Shown: one piece after another, positions 14,351-54,952 of the stretch
How the letters are laid out: every line of letters begins with the position of its first letter
Numbering within the stretch: position 1 is the first letter of the stretch
NCBI GenBank assembly: GCA_040905865.1
Contig: JBBDQU010000010.1
Span: 1-56,360 of the forward strand
DNA: 56,360 nt
DNA from: Alphaproteobacteria bacterium
GTDB lineage: Bacteria; Pseudomonadota; Alphaproteobacteria; UBA8366; GCA-2717185
Reading direction: 5' to 3'
Notes under the pieces: model-generated
Database searches by the model: none
What the model was told of the DNA's origin: nothing
What the model saw: only the letters and a program-made list of their open reading frames with translations
Made by a program: the position numbers and the translations under genes

Positions 14351-14354
14351 GGAT

Positions 14355-14953: not shown

Positions 14954-15412
14954 ATGGATGGCGGCGGAATCAGCGAATCGCTGGAAGGATACCATATCGA
15001 GGAACTGTCGGTCGGCATGACCGCGGTTTTCGCCAAGACGATCACCGAGGCCGATATCGTCCTGTTCGCGGGCACGTCCGGCGACATGAACCCGATCCAC
15101 GTCAATGACGAATATGCGCAGGAAACCCGCTTCAGGGGGCGGATTGCGCACGGTTTCCTGACCGGCAGCCTGATTTCGACATGCCTTGGCATGAAGCTGC
15201 CGGGGCCGGGCTGCATTTACGTCAAGCAGGACATGAATTTCCGGGCTCCGGTGCGGCCGGGCGATACGGTCCAGGCACGGGCAACCGTGGTGGACATCAA
15301 TCGCGAAAGCCGCCGGATTACACTGGAAACGGTGGCGACGGTCGGCGCGACGGTCGTGATCGACGGCCATGCGGTCATGATCGTGCCCGGCCGCCGCGCT
15401 GCGTCCGCGTGA
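14954..15412 (+). CDS. MaoC family dehydratase ((R)-specific enoyl-CoA hydratase-like)
   Basis: A 152-residue hotdog-fold protein. The hydratase motif is clear: FAGTSGDMNPIHVNDEYA (catalytic Asp/His) followed by RGRIAHGFLTGSL. Such PhaJ-type enzymes hydrate trans-2-enoyl-CoA to (R)-3-hydroxyacyl-CoA. The ATG at 14954 is preferred because GAGGA lies 7 bases upstream; an in-frame ATG at 14933 is possible. It is divergent from zur, with ribF following by 53 bases. Confidence 0.88.
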   Translation: MDGGGISESLEGYHIEELSVGMTAVFAKTITEADIVLFAGTSGDMNPIHVNDEYAQETRFRGRIAHGFLTGSLISTCLGMKLPGPGCIYVKQDMNFRAPVRPGDTVQARATVVDINRESRRITLETVATVGATVVIDGHAVMIVPGRRAASA

Positions 15413-38180: not shown

Positions 38181-39005
38181 ATGAGTTTCAAGGTCAAGTT
38201 CTGGGGCGTTCGTGGCAGCATCGCCACGCCATCCCCGAAACACGTCGCCTTCGGCGGCAATACCAGTTGCGTCGAAGTCTCTTGCGGCGGCCGACGCCTG
38301 ATATTCGATGCCGGGACGGGTATCCGGAATCTCGGCCACTGGCTGATGCGCAAGAATGTATACGATGCGCATCTGTTGCTGTCGCATACCCATTGGGACC
38401 ATATAAACGGCTTTCCGTTTTTTTCACCCGCGTTTCATGAAGGCAGTTCCTTTACGATCATGGCGGGGCATGTCAGCGAGGACGGCGGCATCAAGCGTAT
38501 CCTCGCAGGGCAGATGACCACGCCGACATTTCCCGTGCCGCTGGAGGCAATGCGGAGTTCCCTGGAATTCGAGGATTTCAAGGCCGGCGAAAACTTCAAG
38601 CTGTATAACAATATCCAGATACGGACCATGCCCCTTAACCATCCCTTTGGCGCGACAGGATACCGGGTCGAGTACAAGGGCAAGGCAATGTGTTATGTCA
38701 CGGATACGGAGCATGTGCCGGGCAAGCCGGACGAAAACGTGCTGGCGCTGATCGAAGGCGCCGATCTGGTGATCTACGATTCGACATATACCGATGATGA
38801 ATTTCCCGGCAAGGTCGGCTGGGGGCACTCCACATGGCAGGAGGGCGTGCGTCTGGCGCGCGCCGCGGACGCCAAGATGCTGGCGATCTTCCATCATGAC
38901 CCGGATCATGAAGACGGATTCATGGAGCAGCTTGAAGCGGAATCGCGCTCCGTCTGGCCGGGGGCGATCGTGGCTCGCGAAAACATGCGAATCAATCTGC
39001 TTTAA
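38181..39005 (+). CDS. Metallo-beta-lactamase-fold hydrolase
   Basis: A 274-residue protein: KFWGVRGSIATPS, then FDAGTGIRNLG and the dinuclear metal motif LSHTHWDHING with H69, H71, D73 and H74, further ligands in PLNHPF and DTEHVPG, and the terminal FHHDPDH. It resembles phosphodiesterase/PhnP- or RNase Z-like MBL proteins often found as stand-alone enzymes; the substrate is unknown. The ATG at 38181 gives the normal family start. Confidence 0.9.
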   Translation: MSFKVKFWGVRGSIATPSPKHVAFGGNTSCVEVSCGGRRLIFDAGTGIRNLGHWLMRKNVYDAHLLLSHTHWDHINGFPFFSPAFHEGSSFTIMAGHVSEDGGIKRILAGQMTTPTFPVPLEAMRSSLEFEDFKAGENFKLYNNIQIRTMPLNHPFGATGYRVEYKGKAMCYVTDTEHVPGKPDENVLALIEGADLVIYDSTYTDDEFPGKVGWGHSTWQEGVRLARAADAKMLAIFHHDPDHEDGFMEQLEAESRSVWPGAIVARENMRINLL

Positions 39006-39115: not shown

Positions 39116-39144
39116 TTGAGATTGCTCCGTTCGGGCGGTAGTTT
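39116..39144 (+). promoter_or_regulatory. Candidate sigma-70-type promoter before tetraheme gene
   Basis: TTGAGA (39116-39121), a 17-base spacer and TAGTTT (39139-39144). The -35 is close to consensus, the -10 only weakly so. It is a plausible start for the heme/ferredoxin cluster. Confidence 0.3.
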
Positions 39145-39219: not shown

Positions 39220-40167
39220 TTGAACAAATTCTTGGTGACAATATTCTCGGTTCTGTCGTTTGTGGTGGTCAGCGGTTTCATCGGATTCGCGGCGGAAACG
39301 CAGGCGGCGCCGTTCAACGTCGGTCCAAAGAAATGCCAGGAGTGCCATACGGCCGAGGCAACGGTCTGGGAAGGCACGGCGCATTTCAAGTCCTTCAAGG
39401 ATATTCACCGGCACGATAAAGCCGACGACATCGTGGAGGCCGTCGGCGACAAACGCATGAAGCGGTCCGAAACCTGCACGATCTGCCATTACAGTGACGA
39501 GCAGAAGGATGAAAGCGCGAGGCCGAAGCAGGTTGCGGGTCCATCCTGCGAAAGCTGCCACGGTGCGGCGTCCGACTGGATCGCCGTCCACAACGATTAC
39601 GGCGCGGGCGTGAAGCGGGAAGACGAAACCGCCGAACACAAGGCCGAACGGATCGCGAAGGCCGAAGCGGCCGGGATGATCCGTCCGGACAAGCTGTTTG
39701 ACGTGGCGTCGAACTGCATGGGCTGTCACGGGCTGGCGCGGGATGAACTGGAGGCCAAGGATGCGGCCGCGATGCTGGACGCCGGGCACCCGATCAAGCC
39801 GGAATTCGAACTGGTCAGCTATAGCCAGGGCACGGTGCGCCACCGCTTCTATCCTCCGGACGTGACCGTTAACAAGGAGATGACGCCGGCCGAACTGTCC
39901 CAGATGTACGTTGTCGGCCAGGCTGCCGCGCTGGTGAGTGCGACGAAGGCGATGTCGAAATCCGACCACGCCAAGTACAAGGAGGCTCAGGAAAAGCGGA
40001 TCGCCACCGCGACGACGGCGCTGAACGCGGTCAAGGCGCAGGTGCCGGAAGCCGGCGCGCTGCTTGCCGATCCCAGTGTTGCAAACGGCCGCGCGCTGGC
40101 GGCGGCGGTCAAGGGGAAGGATCTGACAGGAGCCGTTGGCGACATGCTTCCGAAGGACCGTAAATAG
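39220..40167 (+). CDS. Periplasmic tetraheme cytochrome c (cytochrome c554-like)
   Basis: A 315-residue exported protein with a signal sequence (about 1-30) and four heme-attachment motifs: CQECH (39-43), CTICH (86-90), CESCH (110-114) and CMGCH (166-170). The N-terminal two-thirds resembles cytochrome c554-type proteins. The C-terminal 120 residues lack hemes and form predicted helices (MSKSDHAKYKEAQEKRIATA). It opens a run of redox genes on the same strand and should shuttle electrons in the periplasm. Confidence 0.88.
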   Translation: MNKFLVTIFSVLSFVVVSGFIGFAAETQAAPFNVGPKKCQECHTAEATVWEGTAHFKSFKDIHRHDKADDIVEAVGDKRMKRSETCTICHYSDEQKDESARPKQVAGPSCESCHGAASDWIAVHNDYGAGVKREDETAEHKAERIAKAEAAGMIRPDKLFDVASNCMGCHGLARDELEAKDAAAMLDAGHPIKPEFELVSYSQGTVRHRFYPPDVTVNKEMTPAELSQMYVVGQAAALVSATKAMSKSDHAKYKEAQEKRIATATTALNAVKAQVPEAGALLADPSVANGRALAAAVKGKDLTGAVGDMLPKDRK

Positions 40168-40225
40168 GGCGATCCTCCCGCCTGGGGCGGGAAGGTGTAT
40201 AACGGCCAGCAGCGTTTCGGGGGCA

Positions 40226-41905
40226 ATGGGCTTGGTGGATCTCGCGGGTAGAGCAACTATGGAGCGGCCGCAACGGTGGTCGACGCCATTCGGTGCGGAA
40301 ATGACCGAAAGCGATGTCGAGTCGCTGTTGCGCCGTCCGGACATCGCGGCTATCGAAGCGGATAATTTCCCCAAACACACCCCCCTGAAGGGGGTGCTTC
40401 TGAACGATACGCGGATCGTCCGGTTCCGGGCCGGCGATATCGTCGTCCGGGAAGGCGACTACGGAAACTCGGCGTTTCTGGTTCTGGAAGGTAGCCTCCG
40501 GGTCGTGCTGGCGCCGGAATTGCCGCAATCGCTGCTGGGGCGCCAGCAGACCGGGAAAAAAGGGTTCTTCGAGGCGCTTTCGCAACTTTGGACAAATTCG
40601 ACAGTGCCCGAGGTGCGCGACATTTCGCGCTATCAGGGGCAGGGGCTGCGCGGCGGGTCCGACAGTGCGAATGCCCGGGTATTCCTGCAGGACGTGCCGG
40701 CTGTGCTGGACAGGCACCGCACCGCAAAGCTGGAAGACGGCGCCCTGTTCGGGGAACTGGCGGCGCTGGGGCGTGTGCCGCGGACAGCGACGATTTTCGC
40801 CGAACAGGAAGCGACCCTGCTGGAAATCCGCTGGCAGGGGCTGCGTGAACTGCGCAAGTATGACGAAGGCTGGCGCCGGATGATCGACCAGCGCTACCGC
40901 GAAAATGCGCTGAAGACGCATCTGCAGGAAAGCATCATGTTTTCGCGCCTGGACGAAAATGCCCTGCAGTCCGTTGTCGACAAGGTTCTGTTCGAGACGT
41001 ATGGCGCATTTGACTGGAATGTCGCATTCCAGAAGCAGCGCCAGAGCGGCAACGCCAAGGAACCGGTGATTGCAAGGCAGGGCGAGTATCCCGACGGCGT
41101 GCTGATGATCCGCGCCGGTTTTGCCCGGGTCAGCGTGAAGCACGGCAATGGGGAGCGGACGCTGACCTATCTTGGCGCCGGCGACCATTTCGGGCTGGGC
41201 GAACTGTACGCGGCCTGGAAAAATCCCGACATTCCGGACATTGCGCTGTACACGACGCTGACGGCGCTGGGCTATGTCGACGTTATCCGGGTGCCGGCCC
41301 CGATCCTGGAAGAACATGTTTTTCCGTTCATGGAGCAGCCGACATCGACGACGATGGATATCGCGTCGAAGCCGGTCGCCGATGACGCCATGATGGAGTG
41401 GGCGGTCGAGGAGCGCTTCATCAACGCGACGCGATCGATGGTGATCGACCTGGAGCGTTGCGTGCGTTGCGACGATTGCGTCCGCGCCTGCGCGTCGACC
41501 CATGGCGGCAATCCGCGCTTTCGCCGGCATGGGCGGACATTCGATAACATCATGGTGGCCAATGCCTGCATGCATTGCGCGGATCCGGTCTGCATGATCG
41601 GCTGCCCGACCGGGGCGATCCATCGAACCGTTGAAACCGGCATCGTCGTCATCAACGACCTGACCTGTATCGGTTGCGCGACCTGCGCGAATTCATGCCC
41701 GTACAACAACATCGCGATGGTCGCGATCCGGACGAAGGACGGCCATACGATCGCCGACCCGAATACCGGCAAGCCGATCTTCAAGGCGACCAAATGCGAT
41801 TTCTGCGACAGTAATCCCGGTGGCCCCGCCTGTGTCCGGGCGTGCCCGTATGGCGCGCTGCGTCGGGTCCATTTCCGGGAATTCAACCCGGCGGGAGCGG
41901 GTTGA
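40226..41905 (+). CDS. Two cyclic-nucleotide-binding domains fused to a four-cluster ferredoxin
   Basis: About 559 residues. A first cNMP-binding domain spans about 65-215, with RFRAGDIVVREGDYG and a canonical phosphate-binding cassette (ALFGELAALGRVPRTATI) split by a roughly 60-residue insertion. A second, weaker domain lies at about 280-370 (RQGEYPDGVLMIRAG, then LGAGDHFGLGELY). From about 405 on comes a DmsB/NrfC-like ferredoxin with four Cys groups: CVRCDDCVRAC, CMHCADPVCMIGC, CIGCATCANSC and CDFCDSNPGGPACVRAC (16 Cys, four [4Fe-4S]). No signal peptide, so cytoplasmic. The stop overlaps the ATG of the next gene. The start is uncertain; 40259 and 40301 are alternatives. Confidence 0.85.
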   Translation: MGLVDLAGRATMERPQRWSTPFGAEMTESDVESLLRRPDIAAIEADNFPKHTPLKGVLLNDTRIVRFRAGDIVVREGDYGNSAFLVLEGSLRVVLAPELPQSLLGRQQTGKKGFFEALSQLWTNSTVPEVRDISRYQGQGLRGGSDSANARVFLQDVPAVLDRHRTAKLEDGALFGELAALGRVPRTATIFAEQEATLLEIRWQGLRELRKYDEGWRRMIDQRYRENALKTHLQESIMFSRLDENALQSVVDKVLFETYGAFDWNVAFQKQRQSGNAKEPVIARQGEYPDGVLMIRAGFARVSVKHGNGERTLTYLGAGDHFGLGELYAAWKNPDIPDIALYTTLTALGYVDVIRVPAPILEEHVFPFMEQPTSTTMDIASKPVADDAMMEWAVEERFINATRSMVIDLERCVRCDDCVRACASTHGGNPRFRRHGRTFDNIMVANACMHCADPVCMIGCPTGAIHRTVETGIVVINDLTCIGCATCANSCPYNNIAMVAIRTKDGHTIADPNTGKPIFKATKCDFCDSNPGGPACVRACPYGALRRVHFREFNPAGAG

Positions 41906-42726
41906 TGTCCCAACGCTATTCCGCCGTGCCCGTAACGACATTCTGCGTCCTGAGCGCGGCTGTGTTTGGGCTGACGGCCTGGGCGGCGCGCGATACGTGG
42001 GAAAATCTCGGCAATCCCGCTATTCTGACCGGCTACACGCTGTTTGTCCTGATGTTGCTTCTGGGCTTCCTCAATGCCCGCAAGCGGCTCTCGATGCTGC
42101 CGGTCGGCCGGGCGAGCGTCTGGCTCGCCTTCCACGTGGTGGCCGGAATCCTGGCGCTGGCAATGTTCTGGCTGCACACGGGAACGATCTGGCCGGTCGG
42201 ACTCTACGAGCAGGTACTGACGGGGCTTTTTTATCTGGTCAGCCTCAGCGGCATAGTCGGCTACGGTCTGTCCCGCATGCTGCCTCGCCGTCTGGCGCAG
42301 ACCGAAATCGAGATCATCTTTGAACGCATACCCGCCGAACTCGCGGAAATCCGCGAAAAAATCGAGGCGCTCGTGCTGGAATGCACGGAAAAAACGGGCA
42401 GCGATACGGTCGCCCAGCATTATATCGGGACGTTGAGCTGGTTTTTCGCCCGCCCGCGATTCCGGATCAGCCATATTGTCGGCGGCGATGCCGCGGGGCA
42501 CTGGCTGCGGGGGCCCGGTTCCGCCGCCAGTCGCTACCTTAACGATCCCGAAAGGGCATATTTCGATCAGATTATCGAGCTCGGCGAGCTCAAATGCCTG
42601 ATAGACCGGCATTATGCGTGTCAGGAACTGTTGAAAAAGTGGCTGTTGGTGCATGTGCCGCTGGCAATGGCTGTAATACTCGTGGCCGTCTGGCACCTCA
42701 TTTTGGTGAATGTGTACGCGCTATGA
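41905..42726 (+). CDS. Membrane di-heme cytochrome b-like subunit
   Basis: A 273-residue protein with five hydrophobic segments (about 8-28, 40-57, 72-92, 103-122 and 245-268). Histidines H77/H91 (AFHVVAGILALAMFWLHTG) and H250/H264 (VHVPLAMAVILVAVWH) each lie 14 apart in the same membrane helix, the spacing of two bis-histidine b hemes. It overlaps the ferredoxin gene (TGATG) and the decaheme gene (ATGA). It probably links the quinone pool, through its hemes, to the ferredoxin on the inside or the cytochromes outside. It takes the place of the NrfD/DmsC-type anchor usually paired with such ferredoxins. Confidence 0.8.
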   Translation: MSQRYSAVPVTTFCVLSAAVFGLTAWAARDTWENLGNPAILTGYTLFVLMLLLGFLNARKRLSMLPVGRASVWLAFHVVAGILALAMFWLHTGTIWPVGLYEQVLTGLFYLVSLSGIVGYGLSRMLPRRLAQTEIEIIFERIPAELAEIREKIEALVLECTEKTGSDTVAQHYIGTLSWFFARPRFRISHIVGGDAAGHWLRGPGSAASRYLNDPERAYFDQIIELGELKCLIDRHYACQELLKKWLLVHVPLAMAVILVAVWHLILVNVYAL

Positions 42727-44723
42727 TTACAGATCCGGACCGGTTCAGGCAGGACAAGAGCCCCTATGAGCGACCGAACTTCCCGTATCGCTGCGGCAGG
42801 TTAAGCTTCTGGGGCAAGCCTTGCGGCCGGGGACCGTCCAGCGAAGGGGCATGTGGCGGCGTCAGCGAATGTACGCCCTATTTCAGCAACGGCCGCTGGG
42901 AGTGCCGGCGTTCCGTCCGCAATGGCGGGCCGTGCGAATCCGGACCGCTGCCCGACGGACGATGTTGTAATCAGCACGCGGCGTGTCGGCCGATCCCGTC
43001 CCTGCGCCGGTTCCGCGGCCGCCTGTCGCTGCTGGCGGCCGCGCTTGTCCTGGCGCTGGTGTCGGCCTTCGGATTCATGGGCGACGATGCGCGCGCGATT
43101 AGCTCGGTGAACCCCGGTGAAATATCCGGTGCGCATTCGAAGTTTTCCAGTAGCGAAGGCTGTGCGACTTGCCACCAGCCGCATGGTCAGGATGCGGCGA
43201 ACTGGCTGCAGGCCGCCTGGTCGCCGGGCGAACTGTCCCAGTCCTGCGAAACCTGCCATACCTTCAACGGCCCGGCATCGGCGCCGCATAACGAAACCTT
43301 CCAGAATGCCAGTGCCGGCGCGGAACGCCAGACACAGTGCACGATGTGTCACACCGAACACAAAGGGGAGAACGGGACGACCGTCAAGCTGGCCGACGCG
43401 CAATGCAACGCGTGCCATGAACAGAAATTCGCCAGTTTCTCAAACGGACATCCGCCGTTTTCCGAAACCTACCCGTCGCGCCGGCGAACGGCCATCGCGT
43501 TCAACCACACGAGTCACTTCACCAGGCATTTCGAGGATCAGCGTTTCGCGGATCGGGCGCCGAAGGACCGTTGCGTCGCCTGCCACGATACGGATCGCGC
43601 GGGCCGCAATGTTCCGGTCAAGGCGTTCGAGCAGACTTGCGCGGGATGCCACGAGAGCCAGATTGCCGACCGTGAAATCGTGGTATTTACTTTGCCCGAA
43701 TTCGAAAAAAATCCATTTGACCTTTCCGCCGTCCGCGAAGCGTGCGGGCCGTCGGTCGCCGACCTGGACAGTGCGTCGGACATCTTCGACAACGTCGCCG
43801 ATGCCCTGGTGGCCGAGGATACCGTGGGTATAGAAAAAAGCATGAAGGCGCTGCAAAGCCGCTTGGGACTTGCCGCCGGCGACGGGGCGGAAGAAGAAGA
43901 ATTCCTGTCGGTTTCGATCGAATTCCTGCCCGCCGCTGCGGTCATGCTGCTGGGGATCGAGGATGGCGGGGACATGGAAGAGTATACCGAACCTGTCCGC
44001 GATCTTGTTCTGGCGATGATCGATGAAGGCGGCGAGGCGTTTGAGGGCGCCGTCGAAGGACGCGGCGTTCCCGCAGATACGCTGTTCGCCGGACTGTCCT
44101 CGGATCTCGTACACCGTGTCGGTTGCGCATGGGCGTCCAATGTCGAATACGAAGCGCCGGCGGATCCGATCGCCGGGGGCTGGTATGCCGATGCCCTTTC
44201 GCTGCGGTACAAGCCGGTGCGACATGCGGATCCGGTTGCCAGGGCCTGGGTTGAACTGGCCGCGGCCGGCGGCGAGGGCATCGACGAGGATTTTCGCGAT
44301 ACGATGATTGGCGGCTCGGATGGGGTCGGCGCCTGCACGAAGTGTCATTCGGTGAACGCGGATGCGGAAAATGCCGATACTCTCACTATAGGCTGGAAAC
44401 TCGGCGCCGAATCCAAGCAGCGCCATGTCCGCTATTCGCATGTGCCGCATCTGAATTTGCTTGGAATGGAACAGGCGTGTGAAACCTGTCACAAAATGGA
44501 TCAGGAAGCGGATTTCGACGCCGCGTTCAAGCAGTTCGATCCAAACAAGTTCGCAAGCAACTTTAAATCGATTGAAAATAATACCTGTATCGGTTGCCAT
44601 GCGGAGGGCGAGGTGCGGCAGGACTGCACGCTGTGCCATGAATATCACAACGGACATGGTTTCAGGCACCGCATGTCAGCAACGGACAATGACCAGAATA
44701 CAGGCGGTCCAATGGCGAATTGA
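42723..44723 (+). CDS. Membrane-anchored decaheme cytochrome c with cytoplasmic Cys-rich domain
   Basis: A 666-residue protein starting in the ATGA overlap with the b-type gene. Residues 1-95 form a Cys-rich segment with nine Cys (24, 34, 44, 50, 61, 71, 81, 82, 88) in a GxPCGRGP-type repeat, without a signal peptide. One membrane helix (about 101-118) then exports the rest. Ten CxxCH sites follow: 147, 175, 206, 228, 284 and 306 in a first cluster, then, after an acidic linker of about 230 residues, 538, 586, 622 and 635. The two heme clusters with a flexible linker suggest a long-range electron wire from the membrane. Confidence 0.88.
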   Translation: MITDPDRFRQDKSPYERPNFPYRCGRLSFWGKPCGRGPSSEGACGGVSECTPYFSNGRWECRRSVRNGGPCESGPLPDGRCCNQHAACRPIPSLRRFRGRLSLLAAALVLALVSAFGFMGDDARAISSVNPGEISGAHSKFSSSEGCATCHQPHGQDAANWLQAAWSPGELSQSCETCHTFNGPASAPHNETFQNASAGAERQTQCTMCHTEHKGENGTTVKLADAQCNACHEQKFASFSNGHPPFSETYPSRRRTAIAFNHTSHFTRHFEDQRFADRAPKDRCVACHDTDRAGRNVPVKAFEQTCAGCHESQIADREIVVFTLPEFEKNPFDLSAVREACGPSVADLDSASDIFDNVADALVAEDTVGIEKSMKALQSRLGLAAGDGAEEEEFLSVSIEFLPAAAVMLLGIEDGGDMEEYTEPVRDLVLAMIDEGGEAFEGAVEGRGVPADTLFAGLSSDLVHRVGCAWASNVEYEAPADPIAGGWYADALSLRYKPVRHADPVARAWVELAAAGGEGIDEDFRDTMIGGSDGVGACTKCHSVNADAENADTLTIGWKLGAESKQRHVRYSHVPHLNLLGMEQACETCHKMDQEADFDAAFKQFDPNKFASNFKSIENNTCIGCHAEGEVRQDCTLCHEYHNGHGFRHRMSATDNDQNTGGPMAN

Positions 44724-44790
44724 GAGAGGGCTGGGTGTTGCGTTGGCGCAACGTGTCGCATCCGCGAAGTGTGATATGCGTCATATTGAA

Positions 44791-44818
44791 TTGTCGGGTC
44801 CCGGGGGCATGCTATAGT
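44791..44818 (+). promoter_or_regulatory. Candidate promoter before pentaheme gene
   Basis: TTGTCG (44791-44796), 16 bases, TATAGT (44813-44818). A small GTTGCG/CGCAAC hairpin lies upstream at about 44735-44751. It could give a separate transcript for the pentaheme-porin part. Confidence 0.35.
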
Positions 44819-44857
44819 GCTTTTTATCGGGATGGGGTGATCGAGAGGGATTTGGTT

Positions 44858-46864
44858 ATGTTGAATTCGATCTTTTCCAGAAACATCGTGCGGTGGTTCG
44901 CCGTCCTGGGGTGTGGCGTCGCCCTGCTGTTTGCATTGCCCGCATCGGCGGATGATCAGGGCGCCGCAATCCAGCAGGCCGTGACGACGCCGGGAGCGGC
45001 AGGCGACCCGCATGCGGAAATGTTCGCAGAAGATAATTATCCCAGCGCATCCCAGTGCGCCGTGTGCCACCAGCAGATATACAAGGAATGGGCGTCGTCG
45101 AATCACGCCTACGCGTCGATCTCGCCGATGTTTCACAAGTTCGAGCAGGCCATCAGCGACCTGACCCAGGGAACGATCGGCACATTCTGCGTGCGCTGCC
45201 ATCAGCAGGTCGGCACGCAGCGCGGCGAACCGCGCGAACTTCCCCTTTGGGAACGCAGCCGTGTATCCAGCGAAGGCATCACCTGCATCACCTGTCATCG
45301 CGTCACGGAAGAATACGGCCGGGGCCAGAACGGCGAACGTCGCATTAATTACGGCAATATCCACAACCCGGTTTACGGGTCGCTGGAGAACAGTAAATTC
45401 GATGAGGTGATCGCCAAGAAGGACGAATACAAGATCGCGACGTCCGAAGAGGATCGCGGCGCCAAGACGCATGCGAATGTCGTGAAGTTCAGCCAGATTT
45501 CACAATCCGAATTCTGCGCTTCCTGCCATCAGGTCGCGGTCAATCTCGGCATCAAGCTGGAAGTCGTCTGGGAACAGTACCGCGACTCGCCGGCCGCCAA
45601 GAACGGCGTTACCTGCCAGGACTGCCACATGGGCAAGGTTCCGGGACGCGCCGAAGGGTACACCACCGCACCGGTTGCCGTCGTCAACGGCGTTCCGATC
45701 AATCCGGGCCGGAAGCACAGCAACCACGCCTTCTATGGTCCGGGTTATCCGATCGCCCATCCCGGCGTCTTCCCGCATAATCCGGAAGCCGAACGCTGGA
45801 CCATGCAGGAATGGTTGAAATTCGACTATCGCGCCGGTTGGGGTACCGAGGAGTTCGAATCCTCCATTGAGGATATCGCGGAAATCTTCGAGGACCTGGA
45901 CGATGCGGTGGAGGATATCGCCAGCGACGACGAGGCCAGGAAAACCTTCGCGGAACAGACGGATGCCCTGGCGGAACTTCTGGCGGACCGCAAGGAACCG
46001 CGGGTCAGGGAGGCGCTTGCCGCCCTTATTGCCGCGAAAACCGCGGATCCGGACGTCGTGAAGAAATCCGTTGAAAAAATGGCGTCGGTTCTGGGCGTCC
46101 GTTTCCCGGAAATCTGGGAATACCCCGGCGACCGTGAGGAAGCCAACGAGATCATCCAGGAAAATATCGTCGCCCTGGAAGAAAAGCGGGAATTGCGCCG
46201 CCAGGTTATGGAAAACGGCAGCCGCATTGACGGCCCGTTCTTCTCCGGCGATCCGGAAGCGGGCGAATCGCTCAGCTTCAAGTACACCATCGTGAATACC
46301 GATGACGGTCATAACCTGCCGTCCGGTTCGCTTGGCGCGCAGCCGGAGATCTGGTTCAACGTCGCGCTTATCGATCCCGATGGCGAGCGTGTCTGGGAAT
46401 CGGGATATGTCGACAGCAATGGCGATTTCGCCGATATCCATTCGCTGGACGTGGCGGCAGGCAAGATCGAATTTGACGACCAGCTGGTCAATTTCCAGAC
46501 CAAGTTCCTGACGACGAATGTCAAGGGAACGGATCGGGAAATGTACCTGCCGGTCAGTTTTGATATCGATCAGCGCCCGTTCCTGCGCCCGATCAACGTG
46601 CCGACAACGGTGCTGAACCATCCGCCGTTTGTCCGGATGGAAGGGCGGTCGATCCCGCCGCTGGGCAAAAGGGATGCCGAATACACCATCCCGGCGAGTG
46701 TCATGAAGAAGCCTGGCAAATACCGTCTTGCGGCGCGTTTGCGCAGCCGGGCGGAGCCGATCTACTTCATGCGGTTCGTCGGGGCGACGAGCGAGATGGA
46801 GCAGTCCATGAACGAATGGATGCTGGATATCCATCCGTACACCGTCGAATTCGAGGTCAAGTAG
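44858..46864 (+). CDS. Periplasmic pentaheme cytochrome c with C-terminal beta domain
   Basis: A 668-residue exported protein with a signal peptide (about 1-31, ending LPASA) and five CxxCH motifs at 67-71, 111-115, 143-147, 220-224 and 253-257, in the cytochrome c554 style. An acidic helical spacer (about 300-440) then leads to a C-terminal domain with TDDGHNLPSGSLGAQPEIWF, of the kind at the end of several multiheme oxidoreductases. GAGAGGGA supports the ATG. A hairpin-like dyad follows the stop. The sequence does not show whether it is a reductase or a carrier. Confidence 0.88.
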   Translation: MLNSIFSRNIVRWFAVLGCGVALLFALPASADDQGAAIQQAVTTPGAAGDPHAEMFAEDNYPSASQCAVCHQQIYKEWASSNHAYASISPMFHKFEQAISDLTQGTIGTFCVRCHQQVGTQRGEPRELPLWERSRVSSEGITCITCHRVTEEYGRGQNGERRINYGNIHNPVYGSLENSKFDEVIAKKDEYKIATSEEDRGAKTHANVVKFSQISQSEFCASCHQVAVNLGIKLEVVWEQYRDSPAAKNGVTCQDCHMGKVPGRAEGYTTAPVAVVNGVPINPGRKHSNHAFYGPGYPIAHPGVFPHNPEAERWTMQEWLKFDYRAGWGTEEFESSIEDIAEIFEDLDDAVEDIASDDEARKTFAEQTDALAELLADRKEPRVREALAALIAAKTADPDVVKKSVEKMASVLGVRFPEIWEYPGDREEANEIIQENIVALEEKRELRRQVMENGSRIDGPFFSGDPEAGESLSFKYTIVNTDDGHNLPSGSLGAQPEIWFNVALIDPDGERVWESGYVDSNGDFADIHSLDVAAGKIEFDDQLVNFQTKFLTTNVKGTDREMYLPVSFDIDQRPFLRPINVPTTVLNHPPFVRMEGRSIPPLGKRDAEYTIPASVMKKPGKYRLAARLRSRAEPIYFMRFVGATSEMEQSMNEWMLDIHPYTVEFEVK

Positions 46865-46872
46865 GGCGTCAC

Positions 46873-46898
46873 CCGGGACGCATGTCAATGCATCCCGG
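46873..46898 (+). terminator. Hairpin after pentaheme gene
   Basis: CCGGGA/TCCCGG and inner GCAT/ATGC arms close around GTCA (46873-46898), just after the pentaheme stop. Lacking a T-run, it may be a stability or partial-termination element before the porin gene. Confidence 0.4.
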
Positions 46899-47001
46899 CT
46901 TCGAGACGGTTAGGGGTTTGTTAACCATAGGGGTAGTTAAAAGGACCGGAGACGGTCGTATCGGGTGAATCGGTCGTTATCTGTCCCAGGGAGTAGGGTT
47001 C

Positions 47002-48534
47002 GTGGCTAACAGAAATTATGAAAATCGGATCACTGTCCGTTGTTCCATATGGTCGGCGACAATCGCGGCAGCCTTGACACTGTCCGGCGCGGCCTTCGCG
47101 GCCAGTGAAGGCCATGATGCACCGCGCACGATGTCTCCGGATGCAAAACCGGTGGAGCACGATACGAATGTGTTCGGATCGGATCCGTCTTATGAGGACA
47201 AGCCCTATGACGCCGGCGAGCAGATCAATATCTATGGCGGCAAGACCGCGATAGACGCGCCCAGGCCCCTGATAGAACTGGGCCGGCCTATCTATACCGA
47301 AGGTGTCTATGGCGAGGGAATCAACCTCATCGGCGAGAAGAACCTGCTGTTCCCGGCCTTCAACATTTCCGGCGACTGGCGGACGGCTGTAGCCTTCAAC
47401 GACAACGGCGATAAAGAGGTCGGGCAGATCGCAACACGGCTTAATCTCGAGCTCGACCTGAAGCTGACCGGTACCGAAAGAATTCATGCCTTCATACGCC
47501 CGATCGACCAGGGCGGGCAGTTTTCACGCGTTGAGTTCTTCGGCGACGATCGCGATGAGAACAAGGCGATCTTCGACCTGAACCTGGAGACGCTGTTTTT
47601 CGAAGGCGATCTGGGCGCCATCTATGCGGGCCTTTCGGATGAATACACGTCGCTCGACCTGCCAATCGCCTTTGGCCTGATGCCCGTGATTTTCCAGAAC
47701 GGCGTGTGGGCGGAAGATGCATTTATCGGCGGCGCCTTCGCGATTCCGGCGCTGAACAGCCCCAAGCTCGATATCAGCAATATGGATTTTACCTTTTTCG
47801 GCGGGATTGACAAGGTAACGACCCCGGCGATCAAGGATGCGCAGGGCAACCTGGCCGACCACGGTGTGAACGTTTACGGATTTGCGACATTCATCGAAAC
47901 GCGTGAATCCTATATCGAAGCGGGTATCGGCCGGGTCGATGGCGAAGGCAATTTCTCCGATCTCAGCTATACCAACGCGACGGTCGCGCATTCGAAACGT
48001 TACGGACGGTTGATGTCCAACAGCATGCGCGCGGTCTGGACCTTTGGACAGGACGCCGATGGAAAGCAGCAGACAGCTGATGGTGTCGCCCTGCTTTTCG
48101 AAAGCTCGTTCTTCACGTCGAAGCCGTCGACCCTGATCCCCTATTTCAACGCCTGGGTCGGTCTGGACCGGCCGCAGCCGCTGGTGGATGATACGGGGCT
48201 GTTGAAGAACACCGGCATCAATTTCGAAACAGACGCACTGACCGGATTTCCCAAGCTTGACGATACGGGCCACGACACCTATGGCGGCGCCCTCGGCCTT
48301 CAGTATCTGTTCAATCTGGACCAGCAGATTGTTGTGGAGGCCGCGACGGTTCAGCCGATTGGCGGGGACTTCGATGTCGGCCGCGCGGCGGAGGGTTCGC
48401 AATATGCACTGGGGATCCGTTATCAGTTGCCAATTTCCCCGGCTTGGATCGTGCGGGCCGACGCCATGTATGGCTGGCTTGAAAATGTAGACGACATTGG
48501 CGGCGCGCGCCTGGAATTGCGACGTAAGTTCTAG
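47002..48534 (+). CDS. Outer-membrane beta-barrel protein (porin-like) of the heme cluster
   Basis: A 510-residue exported protein with a signal peptide (about 1-34, ending AAFAA) and a barrel-like sequence with alternating hydrophobic strands (FEGDLGAIYAGLSDEYTSLD, YGFATFIETRESYIEAGIG). It ends in aromatic F after ARLELRRKF, a BAM recognition signal. It does not show obvious MtrB motifs (no N-terminal CxxC), so its role as an electron-conduit sleeve is only suggested by position between cytochromes and the reductase gene. It could instead be a nutrient porin. Confidence 0.7.
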   Translation: MANRNYENRITVRCSIWSATIAAALTLSGAAFAASEGHDAPRTMSPDAKPVEHDTNVFGSDPSYEDKPYDAGEQINIYGGKTAIDAPRPLIELGRPIYTEGVYGEGINLIGEKNLLFPAFNISGDWRTAVAFNDNGDKEVGQIATRLNLELDLKLTGTERIHAFIRPIDQGGQFSRVEFFGDDRDENKAIFDLNLETLFFEGDLGAIYAGLSDEYTSLDLPIAFGLMPVIFQNGVWAEDAFIGGAFAIPALNSPKLDISNMDFTFFGGIDKVTTPAIKDAQGNLADHGVNVYGFATFIETRESYIEAGIGRVDGEGNFSDLSYTNATVAHSKRYGRLMSNSMRAVWTFGQDADGKQQTADGVALLFESSFFTSKPSTLIPYFNAWVGLDRPQPLVDDTGLLKNTGINFETDALTGFPKLDDTGHDTYGGALGLQYLFNLDQQIVVEAATVQPIGGDFDVGRAAEGSQYALGIRYQLPISPAWIVRADAMYGWLENVDDIGGARLELRRKF

Positions 48535-48555
48535 CGGACGGCCGAGGGGGGGGAT

Positions 48556-49833
48556 ATGGGGACTGTTATCCAGTTTGCGGCTTTGGCCGTTCTTCTGATG
48601 CTGACGCTTTATGTTGCGCAGTTGCTGTATGGCGGGTTTCGCGCGGCCAGGCTGGCAACGGGCATTGCGGAATCCGAACGCAAGCTGATGCAGACCCGGG
48701 TCGCCGAGATCATGGGGAAATGGGATTTCGAGCGCGAAAAGAACGAGTTCTCATGGAACGGTTTCCGGAAATTCGAAGTGGCGCGGAAGGTTCCCGAAGG
48801 CGGCGGCATCTGTTCGTTCTATCTGCGGCCGCATGACGGCAAGCCATTGCCGGCGTTCAGTCCGGGGCAGTATCTGACCTTCCGGCTTGACGTTCCAGGG
48901 CAGTCGAAGCCGGTCATGCGGTGTTACTCCCTGTCCGACAGCCCCAATCCTGATTACTACCGGGTATCGATCAAGGCCGTACCGCCACCGCGCGACAAGC
49001 CGGATGTGCCGCCGGGGCTGTCATCCAACTTCTTCCATAACAGCATAAACGAAGGCGACATTCTCGATGTGAAGGCGCCGAGCGGTCATTTCTACCTGGA
49101 TACGACGAAGCATACGCCTGTCGTGCTGATCGGCGGCGGGATCGGACTGACGCCGGTCATGAGCATGCTGAACCAGATCACGGCATCGGGTTCCACGCGC
49201 GAGACGCATTTCTTCTATGGAGTCCGCAATCGCGCCGAGCACATCATGAAGGAACATCTCGAGCAAAAGGCGCTGGAACACGAAAACGTCACATTGCATG
49301 TCTGTTATTCCGACGCGACCGACGCGGACGTTCAGGGTAAGGACTACCATCATCGTGAACGTGTCGGGGTGGATCTCTTCAAGCGCGTCCTGCCGTCGAG
49401 CAATTACGAATACTATTTCTGCGGTCCGCCGCCAATGATGAACTCGCTCTTCGAGGGACTCCGCGAATGGGGCGTACCCGAAGAGCATATCAATTACGAA
49501 GCGTTCGGACCCGCGACGGTCCAGAAAAAGAAAGAGGCCGATACATCCGGTACAGGAGCGCCCGCCGCCGCGACATCCGAATTCGAGGTCACCTTCGGTA
49601 AGTCCGGAAAATCGGTGAAGTGGGATCCCGGTATCGGCTCCCTGCTCGATTTTGCTGAAGAAAACGGCATCGAAATAGACTTCGGGTGCCGGGCAGGCAA
49701 TTGCGGGACGTGCATTACGGCCATCAAATCCGGTGATGTCGACTATATTTCAGAGCCTGGTGAAAAGCCGGAATCGGGCTCGTGTCTTGCGTGTATTTCT
49801 ATTCCAAAGGGACCGCTGGTTCTGAACGCCTAG
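48556..49833 (+). CDS. Membrane-tethered FAD/NAD(P)H oxidoreductase with C-terminal 2Fe-2S ferredoxin
   Basis: A 425-residue protein. One N-terminal membrane helix (about 4-24), a FAD domain with the RCYSLSDSP flavin motif, the NAD(P)H-binding GGGIGLTPVMSML and the CGPPPMM motif, then a plant-type ferredoxin with C378, C383, C386 and a fourth Cys near 413 (C-x4-C-x2-C). It should exchange electrons between NAD(P)H and a one-electron partner. In this cluster it is the likely link from cytoplasmic reductant to the b-type protein, the ferredoxin, or both. Confidence 0.92.
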   Translation: MGTVIQFAALAVLLMLTLYVAQLLYGGFRAARLATGIAESERKLMQTRVAEIMGKWDFEREKNEFSWNGFRKFEVARKVPEGGGICSFYLRPHDGKPLPAFSPGQYLTFRLDVPGQSKPVMRCYSLSDSPNPDYYRVSIKAVPPPRDKPDVPPGLSSNFFHNSINEGDILDVKAPSGHFYLDTTKHTPVVLIGGGIGLTPVMSMLNQITASGSTRETHFFYGVRNRAEHIMKEHLEQKALEHENVTLHVCYSDATDADVQGKDYHHRERVGVDLFKRVLPSSNYEYYFCGPPPMMNSLFEGLREWGVPEEHINYEAFGPATVQKKKEADTSGTGAPAAATSEFEVTFGKSGKSVKWDPGIGSLLDFAEENGIEIDFGCRAGNCGTCITAIKSGDVDYISEPGEKPESGSCLACISIPKGPLVLNA

Positions 49834-49907
49834 TTCCTGGACGGTGGTGAGGGGGTATTCGTTCCCGGTTTTCGGGTGACGAAGCTGTGTGTTCAAGGAG
49901 AGAATGA

Positions 49908-51254
49908 ATGACTGTTAGATCTGATAGCCTCGATCGTTTCATGGATGGCCTGATAAAGCGCAATCCGGGCGAAACGGAATTTCACCAGGCGGTTCTGGAA
50001 GTGGCCTCGTCGGTAATTCCGTTCCTGCATGATAATCCGAGATACCAGGAAATGCAGATTCTGGAACGTATGGCGGAACCCGATCGGGCCGTCATCTTCC
50101 GCGTCTGCTGGGAGGACGACAAGGGCAATATCCGCGTGAACCGCGGATACCGTGTCCAGTTCAACAATGCCATCGGCCCCTACAAGGGCGGCATTCGCTT
50201 TCACCCGACTGTCACGCTCAGCGTGCTGAAGTTCCTGGGGTTCGAACAGACCTTCAAGAACAGCCTGACGGGCCTGCCCATGGGCGGCGGCAAGGGCGGT
50301 GCGGATTTCAATCCGAAGGGCAAGTCAAATAACGAAGTCATGCGTTTCTGCCAGTCCTTCATGACCGAACTGCATCGGCACATCGGCGAGAATACGGATG
50401 TTCCCGCCGGCGATATCGGCGTCGGCGCCCGGGAAATCGGCTATATGTTCGGCCAGTACAAGCGCCTCGAAAATGAGTTTGTCGGCGTGCTTACCGGCAA
50501 GGGCCTCGAATTCGGCGGCAGTTTGATCCGTACCGAAGCGACCGGTTACGGCACGATCTATATGCTGGATAACATGCTGAAACATGCCAATAACGGGATG
50601 GAAGGCAAGAGCATCTGCATTTCCGGTTCCGGCAACGTGGCGACCTATGCGGCGGAAAAGGCGCGGCAGCTCGGTGCGAAGGTCCTGACCATGTCGGATT
50701 CGTCCGGGTTCATTCACGACCCTAACGGTATCGACGAAGAGAGACTGGCCTATATGGTCGATCTGAAGCAGGTCCGCCGCGGTCGTATTTCCGAATATGC
50801 CGAGAAATTCGGAGTCCAATTCCATGAGGGCCGGCCCTGGTCCGTTCCCTGCGATATCGCGGTGCCCTGCGCCACGCAGAACGAGATCACGAAGGCGGAA
50901 GCCGAAATGCTGCTCGCGAACGGCTGCATGGCGGTGTCCGAGGGCGCGAACATGCCGACGGAGATAGGGGGCATCCACGCGTTCCAGAGCGCGGGCATCC
51001 TCTATGCGCCCAGCAAGGCCGCCAATGCGGGTGGCGTCGCGGTTTCCGGCCTGGAAATGAGCCAGAACAGCGCGCGGATTTCCTGGAAGGAACAGGAACT
51101 GCAGGATCTTCTCTATGGCATCATGAAGGATATTCATGACAATTGCGCTGAATATGGCGGTGTCCCCGGCGGTAGCGTTGATTATCTCAAGGGCGCCAAT
51201 GTTGCCGGCTTCGTGAAGGTCGCCGACGCCATGATGGCGTATGGTGTCGTCTGA
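49908..51254 (+). CDS. gdhA: NADP-type glutamate dehydrogenase
   Basis: A 448-residue hexameric-type enzyme: NAIGPYKGGIRFHP, then GLPMGGGKGGADFNPKG with the catalytic lysine, DVPAGDIGVGAREIGYM and the Rossmann loop ISGSGNVATYAAEKARQLGA. It makes glutamate from 2-oxoglutarate and ammonium. It follows the reductase by 74 bases with no terminator seen between, so it may belong to the cluster. A strong terminator follows it. Confidence 0.95.
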   Translation: MTVRSDSLDRFMDGLIKRNPGETEFHQAVLEVASSVIPFLHDNPRYQEMQILERMAEPDRAVIFRVCWEDDKGNIRVNRGYRVQFNNAIGPYKGGIRFHPTVTLSVLKFLGFEQTFKNSLTGLPMGGGKGGADFNPKGKSNNEVMRFCQSFMTELHRHIGENTDVPAGDIGVGAREIGYMFGQYKRLENEFVGVLTGKGLEFGGSLIRTEATGYGTIYMLDNMLKHANNGMEGKSICISGSGNVATYAAEKARQLGAKVLTMSDSSGFIHDPNGIDEERLAYMVDLKQVRRGRISEYAEKFGVQFHEGRPWSVPCDIAVPCATQNEITKAEAEMLLANGCMAVSEGANMPTEIGGIHAFQSAGILYAPSKAANAGGVAVSGLEMSQNSARISWKEQELQDLLYGIMKDIHDNCAEYGGVPGGSVDYLKGANVAGFVKVADAMMAYGVV

Positions 51255-51330: not shown

Positions 51331-51726
51331 TCCGTTTCCGGCGGCTGCAATCATGGCGCATCCATGGACCGGATTTCGTCCCGAGGCTGTTTGCGGCGTC
51401 AATTCGGGTGTCGGCCCCGCTGTTGCAGAACCGCAACATTACCCGTGAAAAGCGCTGCTGTGGATTGAGCGAAAAATCACACAAGAAACATATAACTTTT
51501 TGAAAAAAAACGCTAAAGCGATTTAAATCCGACTTTTCCCCGCGTCGCCCATGGTCGCCGGTGAATTGACTTCAGATGTCCTGCAAATGCATAGTCGCTG
51601 GCGGTGGGATCGCGCCTGAGAACGCTTGTAATACGACAATTGCATCGGTGCGGTGCGTGGTTGGTGCGTGACGCGTTCCGGCATGATCGTTGCGTAGTCC
51701 CCGGTTGCGGGGGGAGGATGCCGTTG
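51331..51726. promoter_or_regulatory. Non-coding region upstream of TPR/barrel gene
   Basis: About 400 bases without a gene. It contains an AT-rich segment (51480-51530, with ATATAACTTTTTG and a run of eight A) that probably carries a promoter; TATAAC at 51491 is a good -10 shape, but the matching -35 is poorly spaced. No RNA gene or repeat was recognised. Confidence 0.3.
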
Positions 51727-53193
51727 ATGGTAAAAGTATCCGGGATCGGGCTTCGGTTCGTTGCAGTCATCCTGTCCGGAACGGTCCTGCCGTTGGCCGC
51801 AGGCATGGCGCAGACGCAACCGGGTTTCGATGAGACAGAGGCCGCGCGCCAGAAGCGACTGCTGGAAGAGCAGGAGCGTGCCGGCAGCGCATCCCAGGAG
51901 GTCCTGCCGGCCGCCGAAGATATCTCCTATGCCGACGTCCTGAAGGACCCGGACAATGTCGATCTGAATTTCCGCTATGCCAAGGCGCAGGTCGCGCGGG
52001 GCAATGTCCGCGGCGCGGCGTCCACGCTGGAGCGTATCCTGCTGGTCACGCCCGATCTGCCGCAGATTCGGTTGATGTACGCCATCGTTCTGTTCCGGCT
52101 GGACAATATTGACGAGGCCGAGCGCGAATTCAACGCGCTGAAGGAACTGAATATGGCGGCAAGCCTGGAAGCGGAAATCGACCGCTTTCTGGGCGCGATC
52201 AAGAAGCGGCGTCAGACAACAACGGCGCGTGTGCAGGTCGCTGTCGGCGTGAAGCGCGACTCGAACGTCAATGCCGGCCCCCGTAGCGGACAGGCGCTCG
52301 GTGCCGGCCTTTTATTCGCGCCGACCGGACGGGCGCGGAAACAGGATGATTTCGCCGCGCTTGGCGTCATTACCGCCGATGTGACACAGGATCTCGGCCA
52401 TCAGGCGCCGGACAAATTTCTGTTTTCGGCAACGTATTTTCATAACGAGCAGATGTCGATCGACCAGCAGGATCTGCAGTCCGGTAGCGCCAGCGTCGCG
52501 CTGAGGCTGAATTATGAAAACTTCATGATGACGCCGAAGCTTTCCTATACGACCCTGCGCCTGTCGCGTGAAAAATTCTATACCAGCTGGGGCGCCGATG
52601 TGCAGTTTGACCGGCGCAATGTCCTGCCGAATTTTGGCGGTATCGACGGGCATTTCCGGCTGGGCGTGAAGGATGAGAGGTTCCGTGTTATTTCCGAAAA
52701 TGCGCTGGGGCCGGAACGGGACGGTCAGCGGGTGGAAGCGGAATTCGGTCTGAAAAAACAGATAAACCCGACACACAGCCTGTCCGGCGCCGCCCTGTAT
52801 ACGCGCAAGCTGCCTTACGACAAATCGTTCAACGGGTTTCGCGGCCACAAGGTTTCCCTGCAGCATACCTGGCTGCTGGGCGAGGGACAGTTCCTGCTGA
52901 CGGGGCTGGAATATGCGACGAACCTGTACAAGGAACCCGACCCGTCCGTTACCGCGTTTCAGACCCGCCACGACACCCAGGTGCGCTTTCGCGTCACCTA
53001 TGGCGCGCCGCTGGGCAATTTCCTGAGCGAAGCCCATTTCGGCACCGAGGCCTCTAAAAAATATTATGATTTCCTGAAGGACTGGACCTGGACCGTCACC
53101 GGCGAAGTTCTCGACCAGGGATCGAATCTTCCGAATTTCAGTTACCAGAACCGGCGGGCGCAGACCATGCTCACCCGGTCCTGGGACTTCTAG
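51727..53193 (+). CDS. TPR/outer-membrane beta-barrel protein (Slam-like layout)
   Basis: A 488-residue exported protein. After a signal peptide (about 1-28, ending AAGMA) come TPR-like helices (about 55-155: FRYAKAQVARGNVRGAASTL and DEAEREFNALKELNM), then a beta-barrel of about 330 residues ending in WDF. The layout (helical repeats then a C-terminal barrel) matches DUF560/surface lipoprotein assembly modifier proteins. ATG 51727 is chosen because GGGAGG lies 9 bases upstream; ATG 51718 abuts that site. It starts a three-gene set with FecR and CHASE2 proteins. Confidence 0.75.
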   Translation: MVKVSGIGLRFVAVILSGTVLPLAAGMAQTQPGFDETEAARQKRLLEEQERAGSASQEVLPAAEDISYADVLKDPDNVDLNFRYAKAQVARGNVRGAASTLERILLVTPDLPQIRLMYAIVLFRLDNIDEAEREFNALKELNMAASLEAEIDRFLGAIKKRRQTTTARVQVAVGVKRDSNVNAGPRSGQALGAGLLFAPTGRARKQDDFAALGVITADVTQDLGHQAPDKFLFSATYFHNEQMSIDQQDLQSGSASVALRLNYENFMMTPKLSYTTLRLSREKFYTSWGADVQFDRRNVLPNFGGIDGHFRLGVKDERFRVISENALGPERDGQRVEAEFGLKKQINPTHSLSGAALYTRKLPYDKSFNGFRGHKVSLQHTWLLGEGQFLLTGLEYATNLYKEPDPSVTAFQTRHDTQVRFRVTYGAPLGNFLSEAHFGTEASKKYYDFLKDWTWTVTGEVLDQGSNLPNFSYQNRRAQTMLTRSWDF

Positions 53194-53216
53194 GCGCAAA
53201 CGGGAAGGAACGAACC

Positions 53217-54614: not shown

Positions 54615-54617
54615 ACC

Positions 54618-54693
54618 AGATCATGGTCTGCTGGAATCGCCCGTGGCGATCCAGCAACCATTTGAATTCGCTCTATCTTGTTGAAGATGCAGC
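54618..54693. repeat. Dispersed intergenic repeat, copy E (most complete)
   Basis: AGATCATGGTCTGCTGGAAT leads a near-perfect dyad in which TGCTGG-AATCGCC and GGCGAT-CCAGCA (54628-54654) close around CGT. It is followed by the spacer TTTGAATTCGCTC and the ATCTTGTTGAAGATGC block. Confidence 0.55.
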
Positions 54694-54952
54694 ACCTTCA
54701 CAGGTTTAATTGGAATCTGCTGCGCCGGTCGGCGATGGATTCGGCGCCGAAATAATTGTCGACCGCATATTGATTTCCAGCGGCGTTGCCGGCCGCAAAG
54801 GGAACCCCTGAAATCCTTCGGATGCGGCTGCGTGCCGGGGTTCTGGCGGTAACCGTGCCGTTAGGCGGGTATCGAAATATTAACTGTATTCTGTCATTAC
54901 TGGCATTGCTCCTGAAGACCTGTACGGGCCGACGGCCGGAAGGAAACCCACG
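54694..54952. other. Non-coding stretch before CHASE2 gene
   Basis: About 260 bases after the repeat with no supported gene. A GGAAGGA ribosome site at 54938-54944 belongs to the next gene. No clear promoter was recognised. Confidence 0.3.

Follow-up and report, generated by a model that had tools for sequence, protein, structure and literature searches.

The window analysed here is a 56,360-nucleotide stretch from an Alphaproteobacteria bacterium (GenBank assembly GCA_040905865.1, contig JBBDQU010000010.1, positions 1-56,360), and its subject is a cluster of redox genes at 39220-51254, in which the open reading frame (ORF) listing confirms eight genes, all on the plus strand. In gene order these encode a secreted tetraheme cytochrome resembling cytochrome c554 (39220-40167); a cytoplasmic iron-sulfur subunit with cyclic-nucleotide-binding (cNMP) domains and four [4Fe-4S] motifs (40232-41905); an inner-membrane protein, the putative diheme b protein "IMP" (41905-42726); a decaheme cytochrome with a Cys-rich N-terminus and one transmembrane (TM) helix (42723-44723); a pentaheme cytochrome (44861-46864); a predicted outer-membrane barrel (47002-48534); a membrane-anchored FAD/NAD(P)H/[2Fe-2S] reductase (48556-49833); and an NADP-type glutamate dehydrogenase (GDH, 49908-51254). 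Three of the genes hold 4, 10 and 5 in-frame CXXCH sites by motif count. Genome-wide (4.37 Mb), the corresponding DNA pattern was counted 248 times (173 times for a reversed-pattern control), so that about 0.7 would be expected per 12 kb, against 19 observed. The most likely start of the decaheme gene is 42723, and that of the pentaheme gene, whose start codon is uncertain, lies near 44861, both later than the longest ORFs. A first-pass annotation of the same DNA had listed eight same-strand genes with 4 + 10 + 5 heme sites, four [4Fe-4S] clusters, a FAD/2Fe-2S reductase, a barrel and a GDH, and this inventory is borne out: exactly 16 cysteines lie in the four [4Fe-4S] motifs, the FAD, NAD and [2Fe-2S] domains are found, the barrel is predicted as such by AlphaFold, and the GDH falls in an NADP-specific family (NF006929, 732 bits, cut-off 536).

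The proteins of the inner-membrane half are recognizable by family and motif. The tetraheme protein matches the Pfam family Cytochrome_C554 (E 1.2e-11) and, in a sequence search, Nitrosomonas c554 (1bvb, E 2.7e-07). In the iron-sulfur subunit, Pfam finds cNMP_binding (E 5e-23) and Fer4_11/PF13247 (E 1.6e-10); three of its stretches match the cNMP family, a feature unmentioned in the first-pass annotation, and may be read as two domains, the first bearing an insertion. IMP has five hydrophobic helices by merged hydropathy windows, with WX3HX13H at residues 74 and 247 and SGIVG at residue 116 (numbered from 41902). Two b hemes had been predicted at the outset; the two WX3HX13H motifs in a five-helix protein agree with this, the hemes themselves being putative and assigned by analogy. 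The decaheme protein, for which a PDB sequence search gave no match, has a hydrophobic helix at residues 101-119 and seems to be anchored in the inner membrane, which would place its Cys-rich N-terminus in the cytoplasm; this N-terminus is present in window-type relatives and absent in Hyphomicrobium types. The reductase has NAD_binding_1 (E 4.7e-19), Fer2 (5.4e-13) and FAD_binding_6 (5e-06) domains in Pfam, the motifs RxYS, GGGIGLTP, CGPPPM and CX4CX2C, and a hydrophobic helix at its N-terminus.

The outer pair was modelled with AlphaFold. The barrel model (52 sequences, pLDDT 86.3, pTM 0.79) is a prediction with 18 long strands by our count, and its best fold match is OccK7 (Z 26.9, root-mean-square deviation (rmsd) 2.9, 321 residues aligned), with which other Occ channels and MOMP tie; AlgE is also matched. 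The predicted model therefore has the 18-strand fold of OprD/Occ, AlgE and MOMP, but its sequence belongs to none of their families: no Pfam family scores above cut-off (at E 0.1 YfaZ alone appears, under its cut-off), NCBIfam gives no match, and a PDB search with the barrel profile was empty at E 0.1. In ideal geometry an 18-strand barrel has a backbone diameter near 33 A, compared with 48 A for 26 strands. MtrB-type chains are absent from the best 50 structure matches, which by itself excludes nothing. The barrel is thus predicted, newly here, to be an 18-strand OprD/AlgE-like porin and not a 26-strand MtrB sheath; such a model argues against an Mtr-like sheath and remains compatible with a thinner insertion. 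The MtrCAB, MtoAB and PioAB systems likewise combine a porin with multiheme cytochromes to carry electrons across the outer membrane. Identity with them was rejected, since the window's decaheme protein scores 29.2 bits on the DmsE/MtrA model TIGR03508 (cut-off 192.2) and the predicted barrel has 18 strands where MtrB has 26.

The pentaheme model (53 sequences, pLDDT 82.0, pTM 0.82) aligns over residues 29-636 with Thermochromatium tepidum cytochrome c552 (5ze8; Z 18.8, rmsd 3.9, 348 residues aligned, of which 19% are identical), which is also found by sequence profile (E 1e-09). Among the structure matches (VIA) 5ze8 alone stands out, the matches at Z of about 8 covering the C-terminal domain only and carrying no weight. 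The pentaheme protein is accordingly predicted to share the c552 fold, which is new here. Six histidines outside CXXCH are invariant across the 53 sequences and would suffice for all five hemes to be bis-histidine ligated, as would suit hemes that transfer electrons. PHROGs gave no match. An account of the cable-bacteria pentahemes of the PHC family groups these with ExtKL, relates them to c552 and the archaeal nanowire protein AvECN, and assigns T. tepidum c552 no clear role, with sulfur metabolism suggested (PMC11976967). The window's protein differs from c552 in sitting beside a porin and an inner-membrane module.

The first-pass annotation did not recognize this combination as a named system, a view that the literature contradicts. 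PCC4, as described by He et al. in 2017 (PMC5566968), comprises a porin, multiheme cytochromes with 4, 5 and 10 hemes, a conserved IMP and other redox proteins; in subgroup II a PF13247 gene lies upstream of IMP, while subgroup I (Hyphomicrobium) is described as without the iron-sulfur gene and with different gene directions. The window holds the 4-, 5- and 10-heme cytochromes, a predicted barrel matching porin folds at up to Z 26.9, an IMP with five TM helices, two WX3HX13H and SGXXG, and a PF13247 gene 5' of IMP. Two HX13H motifs occur in 51/51 window-type IMP proteins, the full signature in 37 of these and in 9/10 FHA-type ones. Moreover, ten loci homologous to the window (L060-L065, L067 and L071-L073, with records titled Hyphomicrobium, Hyphomicrobiaceae or Filomicrobium) show the subgroup I pattern, and thereby tie the window's family to the published PCC4. 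We consider it nearly certain, from the match to the published description, that the cluster is a PCC4 member of subgroup II-like type. It departs from subgroup II in that the reductase lies 3' of the barrel and not 5' of the tetraheme gene and in the addition of the NADP-GDH, and the main text of the PCC4 paper (PMC5566968) is without the words "cyclic nucleotide" and "ferredoxin". Searches of an open-access library gave no experimental study of PCC4, only the 2017 proposal and a 2026 paper in which it is named once. The window adds a further member to a system that, since its publication in 2017, has had the standing of a proposal.

Conservation of the cluster was assessed in 80 loci out of at least 567 relatives, gathered from a first set of 59 relatives and then from a collection of species genomes; co-occurrence was tabulated for the 43 loci whose flanks extend at least 9 kb upstream and 4.5 kb downstream, and clustering of the neighbours gave 13 families found in at least three loci. 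Profile annotation recovers a recurrent module of tetraheme protein, cNMP/iron-sulfur protein, IMP, decaheme protein, pentaheme protein, barrel and reductase. Record titles assign the relatives to Alpha- and Gammaproteobacteria, Planctomycetes and Verrucomicrobia, and cultured carriers such as Hwanghaeella grinnelliae, Solimonas terrae and Hyphomicrobium sp. LHD-15 are among them. Within the class, the pentaheme model matches 34 of 289 genomes at least 90% complete (the window's own included), 27 of them at more than 150 bits. Heme numbers are kept in 63/66 tetraheme, 79/80 pentaheme and 57/60 decaheme ORFs; the seven deviating ORFs are each the first feature of their stretch and probably cut. 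A decaheme gene outside the 80-locus set (L136) has nine heme sites.

The pentaheme gene adjoins the barrel gene on the same strand within 600 bases in 73/80 loci. Five of the seven misses lie at ends of the fetched stretch (L050, L081, L092, L112, L122), and those of L077 and L119 arise because the mechanically assigned barrel start is too far upstream, overlapping the pentaheme gene. IMP and decaheme genes are present in 36 of the 43 well-flanked loci; the other seven have the outer pair without them (L075, L078, L084, L095 and L096, and, with a tetraheme gene, L085 and L086). Six of these seven genomes could be searched (that of L078 lay outside the search), and five hold a cNMP/iron-sulfur gene at a separate locus, with IMP next to it in 5/5 and the decaheme gene in 4/5, the contig ending at that point in the fifth. 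The parts therefore mostly travel together without always being co-located. Pentaheme and barrel form a constant core, whereas the inner-membrane half may occupy a separate locus in the same genome, an arrangement newly described here.

Also new here is the near-constancy of an NAD(P)H flavoprotein, which a profile with a threshold of 25 bits detects in 35 of the 36 loci holding decaheme and IMP genes. Ten of the 35 are Hyphomicrobium types, for which the scores listed are just 27-36 bits; one of them, L061, shows the Pfam Fer2, FAD and NAD domains in another order. In the exception, L074, the fetched stretch begins with the tetraheme gene, so that a flavoprotein gene ahead of it would be missed. 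The flavoprotein takes three forms: a separate FAD-NAD-Fer2 protein, a Fer2-FAD-NAD protein, and an oxidoreductase fused to the cNMP/iron-sulfur protein, as in L089, where Pfam places a pyridine-nucleotide oxidoreductase ahead of the cNMP domains. Both fused-type loci tested (L089 and L058) carry an FHA domain on the decaheme protein, and Hwanghaeella (L104) carries one on the reductase (Pfam). Signal domains thus swap position among loci, appearing as a Cys-rich head, as FHA on the decaheme protein or as FHA on the reductase.

In the window's iron-sulfur subunit, a phosphate-binding cassette FGELAALGRVPRTA lies at residue 173, with the FGE and Arg that we take to be the consensus of cNMP cassettes, and a profile search matches PKA and PKG domains to this stretch. 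Among window-type subunits (those below 450 residues or 200 bits excluded) the strict cassette pattern occurs in 31/34, and FGE and Arg are kept in the remaining three and in all seven fusions. Judged by its residues, the subunit keeps a cNMP-binding cassette, a feature newly described here, and may bind ligand. Cyclase-type genes, a conceivable source of such a ligand, occur in 7 of the 43 well-flanked loci (L047, L077, L078, L086, L107, L108, L113), with CHASE2 in six and GAF instead in L086. Six of these loci contain seven cyclase catalytic domains, the CHASE2 gene of L107 being cut before its catalytic domain. The window's genome has nine such domains in 4.37 Mb, giving 1.9 expected over 43 stretches (Poisson P 0.012 for at least six domains and 0.003 for at least seven); the linkage is suggestive only, given the close kinship of L107 and L108 and the selection of loci by similarity. 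The window has its own candidate at 54953-56360 (+), a CHASE2 gene (E 8.8e-57) cut by the contig end and probably encoding a class III cyclase, whose relative in L047 (19939-21944) combines CHASE2 with Guanylate_cyc. It closes a set of TPR, FecR-like and CHASE2 genes (51604-56360); in both L047 and L048 the GDH gene is likewise followed by TPR and FecR genes, to which L047 adds the CHASE2 cyclase, the L048 contig ending before that point. By this linkage alone, the window's CHASE2 gene is a possible signal source. In L108 a membrane protein with, by eye, a cNMP-binding-like C-terminus lies between reductase and CHASE2 cyclase (about 15.1-18.2 kb), and L107 has its CHASE2 gene at the place corresponding to the L108 cyclase.

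From what is observed (the genes present, their conserved order, the motifs for hemes and clusters, and the marks of PCC4), we propose an electron path spanning both membranes. Electrons from NAD(P)H would enter the membrane-anchored FAD/[2Fe-2S] reductase and pass to the four [4Fe-4S] clusters of the cytoplasmic subunit, whose cNMP domains would be the probable gate; from there they would cross the inner membrane through the two putative b hemes of IMP, reach the membrane-anchored decaheme protein and be handed to the tetraheme c554-like protein as a shuttle. The pentaheme protein, acting with the 18-strand porin at the outer membrane, would finally reduce an acceptor either outside the cell or admitted through the porin. 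That electrons are carried across the inner membrane is very likely, and outward flow is probable. Gating of the path by a cyclic nucleotide we regard as somewhat favoured, and the whole, an NAD(P)H-fed, cyclic-nucleotide-gated, outward path of PCC4 type, has in our judgment slightly better than even prospects; the order of the carriers and NAD(P)H as donor are inferred. Outward flow is suggested by the near-constant NAD(P)H modules together with general bioenergetics: flow inward to NAD(P)+ would oppose both the redox gradient and the membrane potential, whereas outward flow runs along both. The porin-cytochrome conduit put forward in the first pass agrees with the PCC4 proposal and with the conserved neighbourhood, but its through-barrel form is weakened by the 18 predicted strands.

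Several observations weigh against this proposal. A good cassette is no guarantee of binding, which domains resembling cNMP-binding ones can lose. Linkage to cyclases is weak, with an expectation taken from one genome and an L086 cyclase that is not of CHASE2 type. The IMP signature is incomplete in 14/51 IMP relatives, close ones among them, which lack either SGXXG or one Trp, and IMP could exchange electrons with quinone. In five of the 43 loci the fetched stretch shows none of the other parts, and the genome of L075, whose locus has the outer pair alone, gave no iron-sulfur subunit. With 18 predicted strands in the barrel, a threaded wire of the Mtr kind is doubtful. Finally, RuBisCO by itself separates nothing, being about as rare in non-carriers as in carriers: above cut-off it occurs in 3/37 carriers (one weakly, at 65 bits), the window's genome not among these, and in 4/32 non-carriers. 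This sample comprised 37 of 40 carriers (G006, G007 and G049 left out), seven genomes below 45 bits on the pentaheme model having been dropped, and absence carries little weight in some carriers because their genomes are 62-84% complete. It shows that carriers are not generally Calvin-cycle autotrophs, with which heterotrophic metal oxidation and other carbon-fixation routes are still compatible.

The published direction of flow is the opposite one. He et al. drew electrons inward, as a hypothesis, from an extracellular donor to quinone (PMC5566968): an external donor such as Fe(II) or Mn(II) would be oxidized at the outer membrane and the electrons delivered via the diheme IMP to the quinone pool, the flavoprotein and iron-sulfur parts being secondary. 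Their account places members in Fe(II)-oxidizing Zetaproteobacteria and water-filter bacteria and likens IMP to quinone-active cytochromes b (PMC5566968), which speaks for an inward conduit; as outlined there, however, the model assigns no part to the NAD(P)H flavoprotein of 35/36 loci or to the cNMP and FHA domains, and the 3/37 carriers with RuBisCO fit it poorly, heterotrophic metal oxidation again apart. In our judgment the evidence leans against the published direction, and we rate inward flow as rather unlikely. Similarly placed in our estimation is a reductase for soluble acceptors, in which the porin would admit an oxyanion or metal chelate and the periplasmic pentaheme protein would reduce it with NAD(P)H electrons, none leaving the cell. 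The best precedent, by analogy, is the porin ExtI and pentaheme ExtKL of Geobacter, in selenite and tellurite reduction. The Geobacter ext cluster (ExtHIJKLMNOPQS) is described as containing a b cytochrome, an iron-sulfur protein, multiheme proteins with 5, 4, 10 and 12 hemes, and a porin needed for full selenite and tellurite reduction (PMC5877670), a mix similar to that of the window except for the 12-heme protein; the parts of that description covering the cluster mention no NAD(P)H or cNMP subunit. The predicted OprD/AlgE-type fold of the barrel would suit such an uptake role, and the top NCBIfam match of the pentaheme protein is ExtKL (NF040886), at 33.7 bits far below the cut-off of 250 and tied with the decaheme DmsE model; the barrel has no counterpart in NCBIfam. 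The possible bis-histidine ligation of all five hemes would be untypical of a catalytic heme, and the inward-facing residues of the barrel show no basic excess (11 R/K against 14 D/E, by a crude assignment).

The other function suggested in the first pass, a nitrogen-oxide or hydroxylamine pathway supplying ammonium to GDH, finds a basis in the c554-like tetraheme protein and the neighbouring NADP-GDH. We set it aside as highly improbable. The cluster proteins include no octaheme HAO (HAO was not searched genome-wide), the NrfA family PF02335 matches the genome only in a 31-position stretch of the pentaheme gene, and the pentaheme protein itself misses the NrfA model (TIGR03152, 14.5 bits, cut-off 692.5). 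The GDH, moreover, is the sole ELFV dehydrogenase found in the window's genome, and a GDH gene lies near the module in just 7/43 well-flanked loci. In L046, L047, L048, L097, L098 and L102, as well as in the shorter L103, it follows the reductase gene on the same strand within 127 bases, the called frames of L046 overlapping by 74; in L105 the GDH gene lies upstream of the module on the opposite strand. By chance, 43 such stretches would contain a single-copy gene 0.2 times, so this neighbourhood looks non-random, and the loci concerned belong mostly to related lineages. One Parvularculaceae genome has a GDH gene about 5 kb from an unlinked inner-membrane module. We treat the GDH as a lineage-limited companion, an accessory NADP(H) enzyme and not part of the machine.

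If the outward, gated path that we favour is real, it would let bacteria without evident lithoautotrophy spend NAD(P)H, under regulation, on an acceptor in the periplasm or outside the cell, with possible consequences for metal, oxygen-radical and oxyanion chemistry in water. More tentatively, and as a generalization that we think would more probably fail than hold, PCC4 systems at large could be cyclic-nucleotide-gated exporters of NAD(P)H electrons, two-membrane counterparts of NADPH oxidases, and not devices for iron oxidation. They would then combine swappable cytoplasmic inputs (a separate or fused flavoprotein, cNMP, FHA and Cys-rich domains) with a constant outer module made of a pentaheme protein of the c552/nanowire family and an ordinary 18-strand porin, and would be spread over Proteobacteria, Planctomycetes and Verrucomicrobia, the sampled Alphaproteobacteria being mostly without RuBisCO. 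The comparison with NADPH oxidases is taken further here than in He et al.

Within the cluster, genes 2-4 overlap by a few bases and the remaining gaps measure 21 to 137 bases, a spacing compatible with a single transcript, short of proof. A candidate promoter, TTGAGA-17-TAGTTT, lies 5' of the first gene at 39116-39144 (+), and upstream alignment shows boxes CTTGAG and GGTA(G/A).TT kept in the window and three close relatives (L046-L048). The hits of a sigma-70 scan do not include this candidate, promoter and terminator scans gave hit numbers not above those of shuffles, and the 230 bases 5' of the first gene contain no FNR-, CRP- or FixK-like pattern in the window and 14 other loci. The genes beyond 51254 (the TPR protein, the FecR-like protein and the cut CHASE2 gene) are possibly related to the cluster. 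Ahead of the module, in the window and in close relatives, lie genes that we named by eye as an acetolactate-synthase-like thiamine diphosphate (ThDP) enzyme (36222-37886) and a metallo-beta-lactamase-fold protein (38184-39005); a ThDP enzyme of matching profile occurs near the module in L057 and L079 (upstream) and in L102 and L103 (downstream of GDH).

Some of the loci are unusual in other ways. On a Planctomycetota contig (L093, about 3.7-11 kb) the pentaheme-barrel pair has as neighbours a 15-heme ORF, a weak match to the cNMP/iron-sulfur protein and an IMP carrying two WX3HX13H, perhaps a variant inner half. The Parvularculaceae stretch L136 has a CcmF-like cytochrome c biogenesis gene (by eye; 13354-15372) after the inner-membrane module and a 6-heme ORF at its opposite end. 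Two loci carrying the module, L119 and L125, are titled as metagenome-assembled genomes of Bordetella parapertussis and Klebsiella pneumoniae and look like mislabelled environmental assemblies. Lastly, another contig of the window's genome (G000:C16:42433-42888, minus strand) has five CXXCH sites within 0.5 kb, which suggests a further multiheme protein.

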